From NCBI GenBank assembly GCA_017623055.1, contig JAGAPX010000027.1, forward strand, positions 1 through 55,252: DNA of 55,252 nucleotides, in the 5' to 3' direction. Shown in pieces: positions 14,602 through 19,875 of this stretch. The translations under genes and the position numbers were made by a program. Each line of letters opens with the position of its first letter. Position 1 is the first letter of the stretch. Below the pieces are notes generated by a model. The model searched no databases and had not been told where the DNA came from. It saw only the letters and a program-made list of their open reading frames with translations. The DNA comes from Phascolarctobacterium sp. (GTDB lineage: Bacteria > Bacillota > Negativicutes > Acidaminococcales > Acidaminococcaceae).

Positions 14602-15132
14602 CTATTTTAATTCAGGAGAGAGCAAACCATACTTGCCATCCTTACGACGGTAAACAACGTTCACACCGTCATGTTCAGGATCATAGAATACGAAGAAGTC
14701 GTGGTTCAGCAGGTTCATTTGCAAAATTGCTTCTTCTACATTCATAGGATGCAAAGCAAATTTTTTGCTCTTGATGATTTCGAATTCACCATCTTCTTCA
14801 ACGGGAGCAGGTGCCGTAGCAGGAGCTTCTGCAAAGTTAGCATATTTTCTCTTCATCAAGCGAGTTTTATATTTATGGATTTGGCGTTCAATTTTTTCAA
14901 CAACCAGATCGATAGAAGAATACATATCTTTGGTGGATTCCTGAGCTCTCAGCAAAATACCGCTAGCCGGAACAGTGATTTCTGCGATATGATAGCCGTG
15001 CTCAATTTTAAGCACTGCAGAGATGTCACCTACAGCTTTGAATTGTTTGGTGATTTTGGCAATTTTCTTTTCAACATAATCTTTCATTGCCGGAGTTACT
15101 TCAACGTTTCTGCCTTTTACATTAATACTCAT
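14602..15132 (-). CDS. hpf: Long-form ribosome hibernation factor (HPF/RaiA)
   Basis: Binds the 30S decoding region in starvation and, in the long form, dimerises 70S into 100S ribosomes. The N-terminal S30AE domain (about 1-100) starts SINVKGRNVEVTPAMKDYVEKKI. An Ala/Pro-rich linker (about 118-130) is followed by the C-terminal dimerisation domain (about 125-176) with VVYRRKDGKYGLL. The length of 176 aa is typical of long HPF. An AAGGAGGT SD precedes the ATG. Position upstream of secA-prfB is the common Firmicute order, here separated by a terminator. Confidence 0.94.
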   Translation of the reverse strand: MSINVKGRNVEVTPAMKDYVEKKIAKITKQFKAVGDISAVLKIEHGYHIAEITVPASGILLRAQESTKDMYSSIDLVVEKIERQIHKYKTRLMKRKYANFAEAPATAPAPVEEDGEFEIIKSKKFALHPMNVEEAILQMNLLNHDFFVFYDPEHDGVNVVYRRKDGKYGLLSPELK

Positions 15133-15285: not shown

Positions 15286-16017
15286 TTAGAGAATTTTGGA
15301 AAGGAAGCTCTTGGTGCGTTCTTCTTTTGCGTGGAAGAAAATATCGTCGGGAGTACCTTCTTCCAAAATGTTGCCTTCGTAAAGGAAGATAACACGGTCG
15401 CCTACTTCACGAGCAAAACCCATTTCGTGAGTAACAACAATCATGGTCATACCTTCGTGAGCCAAGGTTTTCATAACGTCCAATACTTCGTTAATCATTT
15501 CCGGGTCAAGAGCAGAAGTAGGTTCGTCAAAAAGCATAACCTTAGGTTTCATACACAGAGCACGAGCGATGGCAACACGTTGTTGTTGACCACCAGAAAG
15601 TTGTTCAGGATAAGCACCAGCTTTATCAGCCATACCAACCTTTTCCAAATATTTTTTAGCAGTAGCTTCAGCTTCTTCTTTTTTAACGCCACGCACTTTC
15701 ATGGGAGCAAGCATTAAATTTTCCAAGACAGTCATATGCGGAAAGAGGTTAAAGCGTTGGAACACCATACCAACTTCTTTACGCACATCGTTAATGCTAG
15801 AATCGTTTTTCAAAACAACGCCATCAATGGCAACGGTACCACCGGTAGGTTCTTCCAAGAAGTTCATGCAACGAAGCAGAGTACTCTTACCACAACCGGA
15901 AGGTCCGATGATTACCAGCACTTCTTGTTCTGCAATGGTAAGGTTTACGCCACGCAAAACGTGCAGGTTGCCGAAGCTTTTATGTAAGTTTGTAATTTTA
16001 ATCATTTCTTTTGTCAT
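15286..16017 (-). CDS. Polar amino-acid ABC transporter ATP-binding protein
   Basis: GlnQ/HisP-type ATPase, 243 aa: Walker [11 protein letters not shown]-loop FQRFNLFPH, signature LSGGQQQR, Walker [16 protein letters not shown]-loop VTHEMGFA. It overlaps the permease stop by 4 nt. It powers uptake of a polar amino acid bound by one or both upstream binding proteins. No terminator was found between its stop and the raiA leader, so read-through toward raiA is possible. Confidence 0.93.
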
Positions 16018-16670
16018 TTGGTTTCAAACTTCCTTTCAAGCACAGCAACAAATCTTGCAACCATAAATACCATTACAAGGTAAATTAACGCAACACACAT
16101 CCAAATTTCAAAGGACGCATAAGTACGAGCGATAATAAGTTGTCCGCGACGGGTCAATTCTTCAAAGCCGATTACAGAAACCAAGGAGGAGTCTTTCAGC
16201 ATAGCAATGAATTCGTTGCCCAAAGGCGGAATAATGCGTTTAAATGCTTGAGGCATAATGATGTAACGCATGGTTTGCGCCCAAGTCATACCCAAGCTAC
16301 GACCAGCTTCCATTTGGCCGGGGTCAATGGATTGAATACCTGCACGGAAAATTTCTGCGATATATGCACCGGAGTTAATAGAACACGCAGAGATAGCTGC
16401 GAAGAACGGGTCAACGCGACTACCGGTAATACCAGGCAGAGCAAAGTAAACCAAGAAGATTTGTACCAACAGCGGAGTGCCACGGATAAAATCAACATAA
16501 ATATTTGCCAGATAGCGCAAAGCTTTTACATTGCACAAACGCGCAATACCAACCATGCAGCCAATCAAAAGACCGAAGCCTACACTAAGAGCAGTAATTT
16601 CCACAGTAATGGCTGCACCAGCCAAAAGCAGCGGGAAAGAACTTGCAATCAAATCAAAATTTAAATCCAT
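16014..16670 (-). CDS. Polar amino-acid ABC transporter permease
   Basis: HisM/GlnP-type inner-membrane permease with about five TM helices. The conserved EAA loop reads [25 protein letters not shown] when joined across residues 137-161. ATG at 16670 (MDLNFDL) is preferred because the GAAGGG SD is 9 nt upstream. The ATG at 16679 abuts that SD. It is cotranscribed with the ATPase (overlap) and with the binding protein 76 bp upstream. Confidence 0.9.
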
Positions 16671-16745
16671 CCTTTTCATCCCTTCTACATTGGGACATCA
16701 AATAGCTTTCTTCACTTAACTTCTAAACTTCAAATATGGTACAGA

Positions 16746-17522
16746 TTATTTTTTAACTTCACCGAACCAGGTTTTGTAGATTTTGTCAAATTCGCCGTTC
16801 TTTTTCAGTTCAGCCATAGCTTTGTTGATGTCTTGAACTAATTGAGTGTTCTTTTTATTTACAGCAATGCCGTATTCTTCAGCTTCCATAACTTCGCCAA
16901 CAGTTTTAGCAACTTTGTCGCCGCCTTGAGCCAGGTAGTAGCCAACTACAGGAGCGTCGTTAATAACAGCGTCAGCACCGCCATTTTTCAATTCCATGGA
17001 TGCTTCACTTTGAGTGTTGAACGCTACAACTTTAGCGCCTTCAACGCTTCTAGATTTTTTCTCACCAGTAGTACCGATTTGGCAAGCAATGCGTTTGCCT
17101 TTCAAATCATCAATGGTTTTGATATCGTTGTTATCTTTGTTAACCATGATAATCAAACCGGAAGTGTAATACGGGTCAGAGAAAGTAATAACTTTTTTAC
17201 GTTCTTCGGTAATGCTCATGCCTGCGATTGCAACGTCAATGTTACCGCTGGTCAGAGCCGGAATGAGAGCGTCAAAGCCCATGTTTTGTATTTCTACTTT
17301 GTAGCCTGCTTGTTTACCGATAGCACGGATAAGGTCCATGTCAAAGCCGGTAAATTCTTTGCTACCTTCTTTTTGGAACTCAAAGGGAGCGAAGGAAGGT
17401 TCAGTTGCTACGCGCATAATTTTTTCAGGAGCAGCAGCTTTCTTTTCGCCACCGCCACAACCAGCAAGGAGCAAGCTACAAGCTGCCAAAACAGCCATCA
17501 TCATAATTAATAATTTCTTCAT
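16746..17522 (-). CDS. Amino-acid-binding lipoprotein, transporter-linked copy
   Basis: A periplasmic solute-binding protein of family 3. A lipoprotein signal ends in the lipobox LLLAGC. The mature protein has the GFDMDLIRAIGKQAGYKVE region and a C-terminal WFGEVKK. The ligand-binding Arg/Asp set of this family (ITEERKK, DAVINDAPV) is present. It is very similar over its full length to the adjacent protein at 17654-18424, including an identical final stretch of over 20 residues, so the two arose by tandem duplication. It precedes the permease and ATPase and is probably their primary receptor. The amino acid is not predictable here. SD GGGGG is 7 nt before the ATG. Confidence 0.92.
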   Translation of the reverse strand: MKKLLIMMMAVLAACSLLLAGCGGGEKKAAAPEKIMRVATEPSFAPFEFQKEGSKEFTGFDMDLIRAIGKQAGYKVEIQNMGFDALIPALTSGNIDVAIAGMSITEERKKVITFSDPYYTSGLIIMVNKDNNDIKTIDDLKGKRIACQIGTTGEKKSRSVEGAKVVAFNTQSEASMELKNGGADAVINDAPVVGYYLAQGGDKVAKTVGEVMEAEEYGIAVNKKNTQLVQDINKAMAELKKNGEFDKIYKTWFGEVKK

Positions 17523-17602
17523 AATAAATCCCCCTCATATTTTTCTCTATGCTATTGGGCTTTAAGCCCTTTTAGCCAATGGGTAACGATATTAAAATAA
17601 AG

Positions 17603-17641
17603 AACGGAGCACAAGCGTTCTTCACCACACTGTGCTCCGTT
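17603..17641 (-). terminator. Hairpin terminator between tandem binding-protein genes
   Basis: An 11-bp stem AACGGAGCACA/TGTGCTCCGTT (17603-17613 with 17631-17641) is followed on the minus strand by CTTTATTTTAAT. It ends, perhaps partially, transcription of the upstream binding protein. A second small palindrome, GGGCTTTAAGCCC (17557-17569), lies between it and the next gene and lacks a U-tract on this strand. Confidence 0.65.
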
Positions 17642-17653
17642 AAGACCGACTTA

Positions 17654-18424
17654 TTATTTCTTTACTTCACCAAACCAGGTTTTGTAAATCTTGTCAAATT
17701 CGCCGTTCTTTTTCAGCTCAGCCATAGCTTTGTTGATGTCACCAACCAATTTGTCGTTGCCTTTTTTAACAGCAATACCGTATTGTTCAGCTTCCATAAC
17801 TTCGCCAACGGTTTTAGCAGTCGCATTACCACCTTGTGCCAGGTAGTAGCCAACAACGGGGCTATCATTGATTACAGCGTCAACGCCTTTGTTTTTCAAT
17901 TCCATAGCAGCTTCGGTATTAGTGTTGAATGCAACAACAGTAGCACCTTGTACAGTTCTGGATTTCATTTCGCCAGTAGTACCGATTTGGCAAGCAATAC
18001 GTTTGCCTTTCAAATCGTTAATGGATTTGATTTCGTTGTTGTCTTTGTTAACCATAACAACGAGACCGGAAGTGTAGTACGGTTCAGAGAAGCTTACTGC
18101 ACCTTTACGTTCTTCGGTAATGGTCATGCCTGCGATGGTAGCATCAATGTTACCAGCGTTCAAAGCAGGGATAAGAGCATCGAAGCCCATGTTCATAATT
18201 TCAACTTTGTAACCAGCTTGTTTACCGATGGCACGGATAAGATCCATATCGAAACCGGTGAATTCGCTGCTACCTTCTTTTTGGAATTCGAAGGGTGCAA
18301 AGGTAGGTTCAGTACCTACACGCAAAACTTTTTCAGCAGCTTTCTTTTCGCCGCCGCCACAACCAGCAGCCAACATAGCAACTGCTGCGATGATAGTCAT
18401 CATTAAAATAAGCAGTTTTTTCAT
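17654..18424 (-). CDS. Amino-acid-binding lipoprotein, paralogous copy
   Basis: Family 3 solute-binding lipoprotein, 256 aa from ATG 18424 (MKKLLILMM), which has a GGAGATTTTAAG SD context. The longer frame to 18520 runs through its promoter and was rejected. The lipobox is MLAAGC. It closely matches the neighbour at 16746-17522. Differences cluster around residues 120-200 (GEMKSRTVQ versus GEKKSRSVE, GNATAKT versus GDKVAKT), so ligand preference may have shifted. It has its own promoter (TTGCCG-17-TATAAT) and a terminator, so it can be expressed apart from the transporter and may feed the same permease with a second ligand. Confidence 0.92.
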   Translation of the reverse strand: MKKLLILMMTIIAAVAMLAAGCGGGEKKAAEKVLRVGTEPTFAPFEFQKEGSSEFTGFDMDLIRAIGKQAGYKVEIMNMGFDALIPALNAGNIDATIAGMTITEERKGAVSFSEPYYTSGLVVMVNKDNNEIKSINDLKGKRIACQIGTTGEMKSRTVQGATVVAFNTNTEAAMELKNKGVDAVINDSPVVGYYLAQGGNATAKTVGEVMEAEQYGIAVKKGNDKLVGDINKAMAELKKNGEFDKIYKTWFGEVKK

Positions 18425-18479: not shown

Positions 18480-18508
18480 ATTATATACCCAATCATCCTA
18501 AACGGCAA
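18480..18508 (-). promoter_or_regulatory. Promoter of the paralogous binding-protein gene
   Basis: On the minus strand: -35 TTGCCG (18508-18503), 17-nt spacer, -10 TATAAT (18485-18480), about 50 nt upstream of the ATG at 18424. Its presence shows that the structured RNA region further upstream is a separate transcription unit rather than this gene's leader. Confidence 0.75.
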
Positions 18509-18552
18509 GACTTTCTTCATATAATTAATACGTAAATTTTATTGGAACTTTA

Positions 18553-18781
18553 TGCGACACGGCTGACCTGGTCTTCGCCCCCACACTCGCCTGCTGGGTG
18601 GTTCGCTCCTAAGCTTCAGCTCCCCACTACTACACCTCTCGCCAAAAATAATTATGCGTTATACGCTGCGGCAGGACTTACTTCTAAGCTGCACCGTGCT
18701 CATAGCAAATTTTTACGCTACTTACGTGGATCGTTTCGCCTGCAACTGGCATCGACTTGCAACCACAGACCCGAGTCGCAC
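18553..18781 (-). ncRNA. Structured non-coding RNA, about 230 nt, family not recognised
   Basis: The 5' and 3' ends pair into a 10-bp closing helix with one mismatch: TGCGACTCGG (18780-18771) with CCGTGTCGCA (18562-18553). A GTCT/AGAC extension follows immediately inside. Internal hairpins include TAGC/GCTA with a 10-nt loop, GCAG-CTTA/TAAG-CTGC and GCGT/ACGC. The region is clearly GC-richer than the flanking intergenic DNA. A near-consensus promoter starts transcription exactly at the helix. No SD-led ORF is present. No SRP GGAAGG core, RNase P signature, cobalamin B12 box or tmRNA acceptor was found. A 6S-like or raiA-motif-like RNA is conceivable by size and closing stem, but unproven. No U-tract follows the 3' end, so maturation by trimming is suggested. 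Confidence 0.7.
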
Positions 18782-18787
18782 TAGGAT

Positions 18788-18816
18788 ATTATATGCTTTT
18801 CAAAAATTTTCTGCAA
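18788..18816 (-). promoter_or_regulatory. Near-consensus sigma-A promoter of the structured RNA
   Basis: On the minus strand: TTGCAG (18816-18811), exactly 17 nt, then TATAAT (18793-18788). The expected start at 18782/18781 is the first base before the closing helix of the RNA. This is one of the best promoters in the window. Confidence 0.85.
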
Positions 18817-18883: not shown

Positions 18884-19501
18884 ATGATTGCTTTACCACA
18901 ATGTCTGGAATTTCCCTACGATGATCGCAGCAGGGAAGTTTGCGACTTTTACTTACAAATTTTAGAAATTAAAAATAAAAGTGTCTTTATGCACAGCAAG
19001 CAGGTTGCCAACTATTCTGCGAGCATTGCCGCAAATATTGGCTTGCCTCCTGCAGAAGTTGCCTGCATTAAAACAGCAGCACTCCTTCACGATATAGGAC
19101 AGCTTTCCGTACCGAACCTTGTTCTTTCCAAGGTTCCCTACCTTACCAAACGTGAAGAAGCTGCTTACAAGCGTCACTGCTTGGCTGGCGCAGCTATGCT
19201 GGAAAACTTTCCAGAATTTGGACATATTATCAGCATTATCCGTTCGCACCACGAAAAATTCGACGGCACAGGTTATCCCAAACGTCTAAAAGGGCAGAAC
19301 ATCCCTTTGGGAGCACGCATCATCGCCGTGGCAAATTATTATGACCGTTACATCAACCCCTGCACTCAGCACTGGCAAAAAACTCATGCCGAAGCAATTT
19401 CTGAACTGCAAGATAAATCCGGTCAAGACTTTGATCCCCATATCGTAAAAGCTTTTATTGAAAGCGTATTGCCCTCGGCTATTGAAGCTCATAATATTTA
19501 A
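18884..19501 (+). CDS. Compact HD-GYP domain protein
   Basis: 205 aa, essentially one HD-GYP domain with no sensor or receiver part. It carries LLHDIGQLSVP, KRHCLAGAAML, IRSHHEKFDGTGYP (the GYP signature), IPLGARIIAVANYYDRY and a final DFDPHIVKAF. HD-GYP proteins are metal-dependent phosphodiesterases for cyclic dinucleotides. The metal ligands (H, HD, H, HH, D) appear present. The usual Lys of HDIGK is Gln, and the DALTxxRPYR segment is replaced by a short DRYINPCTQ, so activity or substrate may be altered. The ATG at 18884 is preceded by GGGCGGATAAAA. It is monocistronic, divergent from the RNA gene and followed by a strong terminator. Confidence 0.82.
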   Translation: MIALPQCLEFPYDDRSREVCDFYLQILEIKNKSVFMHSKQVANYSASIAANIGLPPAEVACIKTAALLHDIGQLSVPNLVLSKVPYLTKREEAAYKRHCLAGAAMLENFPEFGHIISIIRSHHEKFDGTGYPKRLKGQNIPLGARIIAVANYYDRYINPCTQHWQKTHAEAISELQDKSGQDFDPHIVKAFIESVLPSAIEAHNI

Positions 19502-19643: not shown

Positions 19644-19719
19644 TGGTGGTCGCTGACGGGATCGAACCGCCGACATTCTGCTTGTAAGGCAGACGCTCTC
19701 CCAGCTGAGCTAAGCGACC
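19644..19719 (-). tRNA. tRNA-Val (TAC)
   Basis: 76 nt including encoded CCA. Acceptor pair GGTCGCT/AGCGACC, anticodon loop CTTACAA (anticodon TAC), T-loop GTTCGATCC. Last of three tandem tRNAs on one transcript. Confidence 0.97.
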
Positions 19720-19721
19720 AT

Positions 19722-19796
19722 TGGTGACCGGTAGGGGAATCGAACCCCTGATACCGCCGTGAAAGGGCGGTGTCTTAACCGCTTGACCAACCGGCC
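19722..19796 (-). tRNA. tRNA-Glu (TTC)
   Basis: 75 nt including encoded CCA. Acceptor GGCCGGT/ACCGGTC (one G-U pair), anticodon stem CCGCC/GGCGG, loop CTTTCAC (anticodon TTC), T-loop GTTCGATTC. Two nt separate it from tRNA-Val. Confidence 0.97.
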
Positions 19797-19799
19797 AGG

Positions 19800-19875
19800 T
19801 GGCTCCCCGAGTAGGACTCGAACCTACGACATACGGATTAACAGTCCGCCGTTCTACCGACTGAACTATCGGGGA
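19800..19875 (-). tRNA. tRNA-Asn (GTT)
   Basis: 76 nt including encoded CCA. Acceptor TCCCCGA/TCGGGGA, anticodon loop CTGTTAA (anticodon GTT), T-loop GTTCGAGTC, discriminator G. First of the cluster, 3 nt before tRNA-Glu. The AT-rich 110 bp upstream (19876-19986) hold no gene. Confidence 0.97.

Follow-up and report, generated by a model that had tools for sequence, protein, structure and literature searches.

What is encoded in the DNA that separates an amino-acid transporter operon from a divergent HD-GYP-like gene in Phascolarctobacterium sp. (assembly GCA_017623055.1, contig JAGAPX010000027.1)? The window, i.e. the whole stretch of DNA that was analysed, is 55,252 nt long. A first-pass annotation of its letters had claimed a structured RNA gene at this place and left three options: a 6S-type RNA, a raiA-motif RNA or an undescribed family. 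The raiA RNA (ModT) is a non-coding RNA that is abundant and widespread in bacteria, with thousands of species known to carry it. The features of the locus that concern the RNA itself are as follows.

18741..18747 (-), first half of pseudoknot pk-1, P3 loop AGUUGCA, RNA positions 33-39 (pairing, covariation; PMC11751092)
18687..18693 (-), second half of pk-1, UGCAGCU, RNA positions 87-93 (pairing, covariation; PMC11751092)
18771..18779 (-), closing helix P1a, 5' strand, pairs with 18554-18562 with one U-U mismatch
18554..18562 (-), closing helix P1a, 3' strand, pairs with 18771-18779
18554..18779 (-), raiA RNA (RF03072; ModT), full length (Rfam match, family spread, covariation)
18787..18815 (-), RNA promoter TTGCAG-17-TATAAT (sequence; conserved position in relatives)

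Identity and structure of the RNA

That 18779-18554(-) encodes the raiA RNA is virtually certain. A scan with 4,227 Rfam families gave a match to RF03072 at 18554-18779(-), scoring 195.5 bits where the gathering score is 101.3; the alignment spans positions 1-209 of the 209 in the model and is not truncated, and a permissive search (E<=1) found no other Rfam family at the locus. The structured RNA gene is thereby confirmed on the minus strand, as one gene with an RNA proper of 226 nt, present in a single copy in this genome. The confident match makes it a member of a known family and rules out an undescribed one; this family already has a solved structure, knock-outs and a record of trans action. 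Could the locus instead encode an RNA of the 6S type, a binder of RNA polymerase? Its end-closing helix, length, likely abundance and housekeeping style resemble those of 6S RNA (RF00013), but there is no match to the 6S model here at E<=1, and a separate, confident 6S RNA is found elsewhere in the same genome (G000:C34:23446-23628, 86.3 bits), which leaves this reading with almost no probability. The locus shows that an unaided reading of sequence is able to pick out a raiA RNA.

The RNA region is rich in GC, 54.4% vs 43.1% in the window, a level reached by just 0.2% of pieces of the same size. The enrichment described earlier for some 230 nt thus stands, as do the complementary ends with one mismatch, but the closing helix, put at 10 bp, consists of 9 pairs with a U-U mismatch (RNA positions 6 and 221). 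It is intact in near relatives. The single-sequence fold is no better than that of shuffles in free energy (z = +1.09); free-energy folding was therefore dropped as evidence, and the structural claim rests on homologues.

Homologues are plentiful. RF03072 is present in 57 of the 59 genomes of the host's family, one copy each, and in 149/200 sampled genomes of its class. Fifty-six copies, 55 of them distinct in sequence, were aligned and scored for covariation over pk-1 and the helices seen by cryo-EM in the published structure, which contains both pk-1 and pk-2 (PMC11751092); pk-2, with two pairs, is too short and invariant for such scoring. The structure drawn in Rfam was set aside, because pk-1 appears in it as a nested helix and two positions that mismatch are shown as paired. 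Standard pairs occupy 98.3% of cells in the distinct sequences, and changes on both sides occur at 22 pairs, with 223 such cells vs 53 in shuffles. When the partner is slid by one column, pairing falls to 30-41%. Helices P1 and P3-P8 are conserved; covariation is located in P1, P5, P7 and P8, and P3, P4 and the greater part of P6 are nearly invariant. The closing helix covaries strongly (double changes at 9/12 pairs of P1a/P1b). The seven-pair pk-1, which joins the P3 loop with the pk-loop, is paired in 98.2% of cells and carries compensatory changes at two pairs, U-A to C-G and A-U to G-C.

Transcription and the adjoining operon

Is the RNA a transcription unit of its own, or the leader of the genes that follow? 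The -10 of its promoter is perfect and the location is as described before, but the -35 is weak, TTGCAG matching TTGACA at 3/6 positions; a generic promoter scan omits the site for this reason. The RNA is expected to start at ~18780-18779, about 8 nt past the promoter. Exact TATAAT lies 4-13 nt upstream of the RNA in 28/41 host-family loci (shuffles place it in that interval in 2.2%), and all 28 have TTG at a spacing of 16-18 nt. The distance to the RNA is conserved across genera, with weaker promoter variants in one genus (g17). Sequence and this cross-genus conservation point to a sigma-A promoter belonging to the RNA, which is very probably transcribed independently.

The 3' end is less uniform. 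A T-run directly follows the P1 3' strand in most relatives (>=6 T in 8 nt at 28/40 loci), which suggests that there P1 plus the T-run may end transcription. The window's genus has only 3-4 T behind P1, and a terminator search at this locus found no intrinsic terminator behind the RNA; read-through into the transporter operon is thus possible in this genus. In Clostridioides difficile, ModT occurs in a short and a long form with different 3' ends (PMC11706538). Downstream are the following features.

18480..18508 (-), operon promoter-like site TTGCCG-17-TATAAT, 10/12 matches
17654..18424 (-), GlnH-type substrate-binding protein 1 (Pfam PF00497; NCBIfam GlnH-like below cut-off)
16746..17522 (-), substrate-binding protein 2, 81% identical to protein 1 (domain and identity comparison)
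16014..16679 (-), GlnP-type permease (profile searches)
15286..16017 (-), GlnQ-type ATPase (profile searches)
14602..15132 (-), long-form HPF, gene hpf/raiA (PF02482 and PF16321; TIGR00741 above cut-off)

The RNA is named after the raiA gene, which encodes the ribosome hibernation factor HPF. In the window hpf/raiA lies 3.4 kb downstream of the RNA, beyond the glutamine-type ABC transporter operon, and it is found on the same strand, downstream within about 5.1 kb, in 30/36 evaluable host-family loci. Soares and colleagues, as cited in PMC11706538, place comFC upstream of the RNA in 74% of cases and raiA downstream of it in 66%, and on these figures the layout is typical of the RNA family, with the transporter operon inserted between RNA and hpf. 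The binding-protein genes stand in tandem (16746-18424); relatives carry one to three copies.

A cis-acting role of the RNA, as leader or riboswitch of the amino-acid transporter operon, is what the Rfam type label of RF03072 suggests ('Cis-reg; riboswitch'). The two share a strand, the first binding-protein gene has its start codon 130 nt downstream of the RNA, in this genus no terminator lies in between, and the transporter comes after the RNA in most host-family loci. Nonetheless the operon has a promoter-like site of its own at 18508-18480, as had been proposed (the region holds 3 such sites vs 1.6 expected), and the neighbours vary: at one locus (L036) hpf, not the transporter, directly follows the RNA, and four others (L043, L047, L050, L058) have no orthologous transporter operon or hpf within 8 kb. 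The T-runs of most relatives also argue against a leader, as do deletions in C. difficile and C. acetobutylicum that were complemented in trans (PMC11706538). The riboswitch reading was rejected on these grounds and is very unlikely to be correct.

A divergent HD-GYP-like gene and the question of c-di-GMP

On the other side of the RNA is a gene in the opposite orientation.

18884..19501 (+), HD-GYP-like protein with motifs HDIGQ and HHEKFDGTGYP (PF13487, 133 bits)

The gene is divergent from the raiA RNA at all 40 evaluable host-family loci. Outside the family it is divergent from the RNA at 8/15 sampled loci, each of the eight belonging to a single other family of the class (f28). The copies keep HHE..DG.GYP, and in nearly all of them the Lys of HDxGK is replaced by Q, H, L, T, S or M; in the window's copy, the AVAD-like motif also carries Asn where Asp is expected. 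The pairing is not universal, since an HD-GYP profile scan of named genomes returned generic HD-GYP proteins with the raiA core pattern at 0/80 loci; the closest scanned locus, in Megasphaera micronuciformis (L091), has no raiA RNA within 4 kb. Behind the HD-GYP-like gene, three tRNA genes are arranged in a row (19647-19875(-)), and a tRNA triplet is also found near two other loci (L036, L049).

Does the RNA act through c-di-GMP here, with this gene as partner? Deletion of ModT raises c-di-GMP in C. difficile (PMC11706538), and the constancy of the divergent neighbour is in keeping with such a role. Against it is the want of enzymes: a domain search of this draft genome, which would miss unknown cyclases, detected no GGDEF domain, and none was detected for EAL. 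A GGDEF match is absent from 30/59 host-family genomes (domain search, drafts), of which 28 keep a full-length raiA RNA; in one of the other two none was found (G039) and in the second the piece is cut at a contig end (G040). EAL was likewise undetected by domain search in 12/13 of the GGDEF-free genomes tested. The replaced Lys of HDxGK and the Asp to Asn change are further evidence against this role, which is improbable. The RNA and the degenerate protein might alternatively work as a pair in this lineage, with the protein acting as a nucleotide sensor or enzyme that is tied to the RNA and has given up its c-di-GMP role; we consider this equally improbable, yet if true it would offer a first protein handle on the mechanism of the raiA RNA family.

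Spo0A is found in 0/59 host-family genomes, and a c-di-AMP cyclase in 55/59. With no Spo0A in the host family and no GGDEF or EAL detected in this genome, the clostridial c-di-GMP and sporulation phenotypes are unlikely to represent the universal role of the RNA; we infer that they are downstream outcomes in clostridia and not its general function. The raiA RNA is retained where Spo0A, GGDEF and (12/13 tested) EAL are missing from nearly complete genomes, and such species are clean hosts in which to look for a general function, free of the clostridial phenotypes. What the locus adds to a known family are two modest leads, its HD-GYP-like neighbour and the hosts that lack GGDEF.

Possible function and variation among relatives

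How might the RNA work? For ModT, a SigA promoter, abundance, half-life, trans complementation and orthologue exchange have been reported (PMC11706538), and the raiA RNA is a monomer (PMC12286853). By analogy with these relatives, the Phascolarctobacterium RNA would be transcribed in growing cells from a housekeeping sigma-A promoter, would adopt a compact monomeric fold secured by two pseudoknots and should be very stable and abundant. The first-pass view of an abundant housekeeping-type RNA is in line with what has been published on relatives (PMC11706538). It would act in trans, probably bound to protein, and may time the exit from exponential growth; action in trans is, by the same analogy, likely. 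It would not control the adjoining operon as a riboswitch. The explanation as a whole (identity, own transcription, trans action, no riboswitch role) is held with high confidence. As to the molecular step, the preferred reading is an RNA-protein particle that acts on a general step of translation or RNA metabolism, because the RNA is kept in an organism that has neither sporulation nor detectable c-di-GMP enzymes, and because it remains near the gene for ribosome hibernation. This last proposal is tentative, and the odds are rather against it.

In comparison with the raiA RNA family (RF03072; ModT in C. difficile), the window's copy is alike in model length, in all helices and pk-1, in high GC for its genome, in a TATAAT promoter at the start point and in the nearness of an hpf/raiA gene. 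It differs in one P1 mismatch, in having no terminator behind it and in the transporter operon that precedes hpf; its P7 stem-loop exceeds that of most relatives by ~20 nt. These differences do not depart from the family. Among the sampled genomes listed under one family of the class (f15), most of them near complete, none has a raiA RNA match; this lineage may have lost the RNA. A raiA RNA of 285 nt in another relative (L049:7925-8209) has an internal duplication, the pk-loop/P6 segment (GCAGCTTAGAAGTAAGTCCTGCCGCAG) recurring inside its P7 loop.
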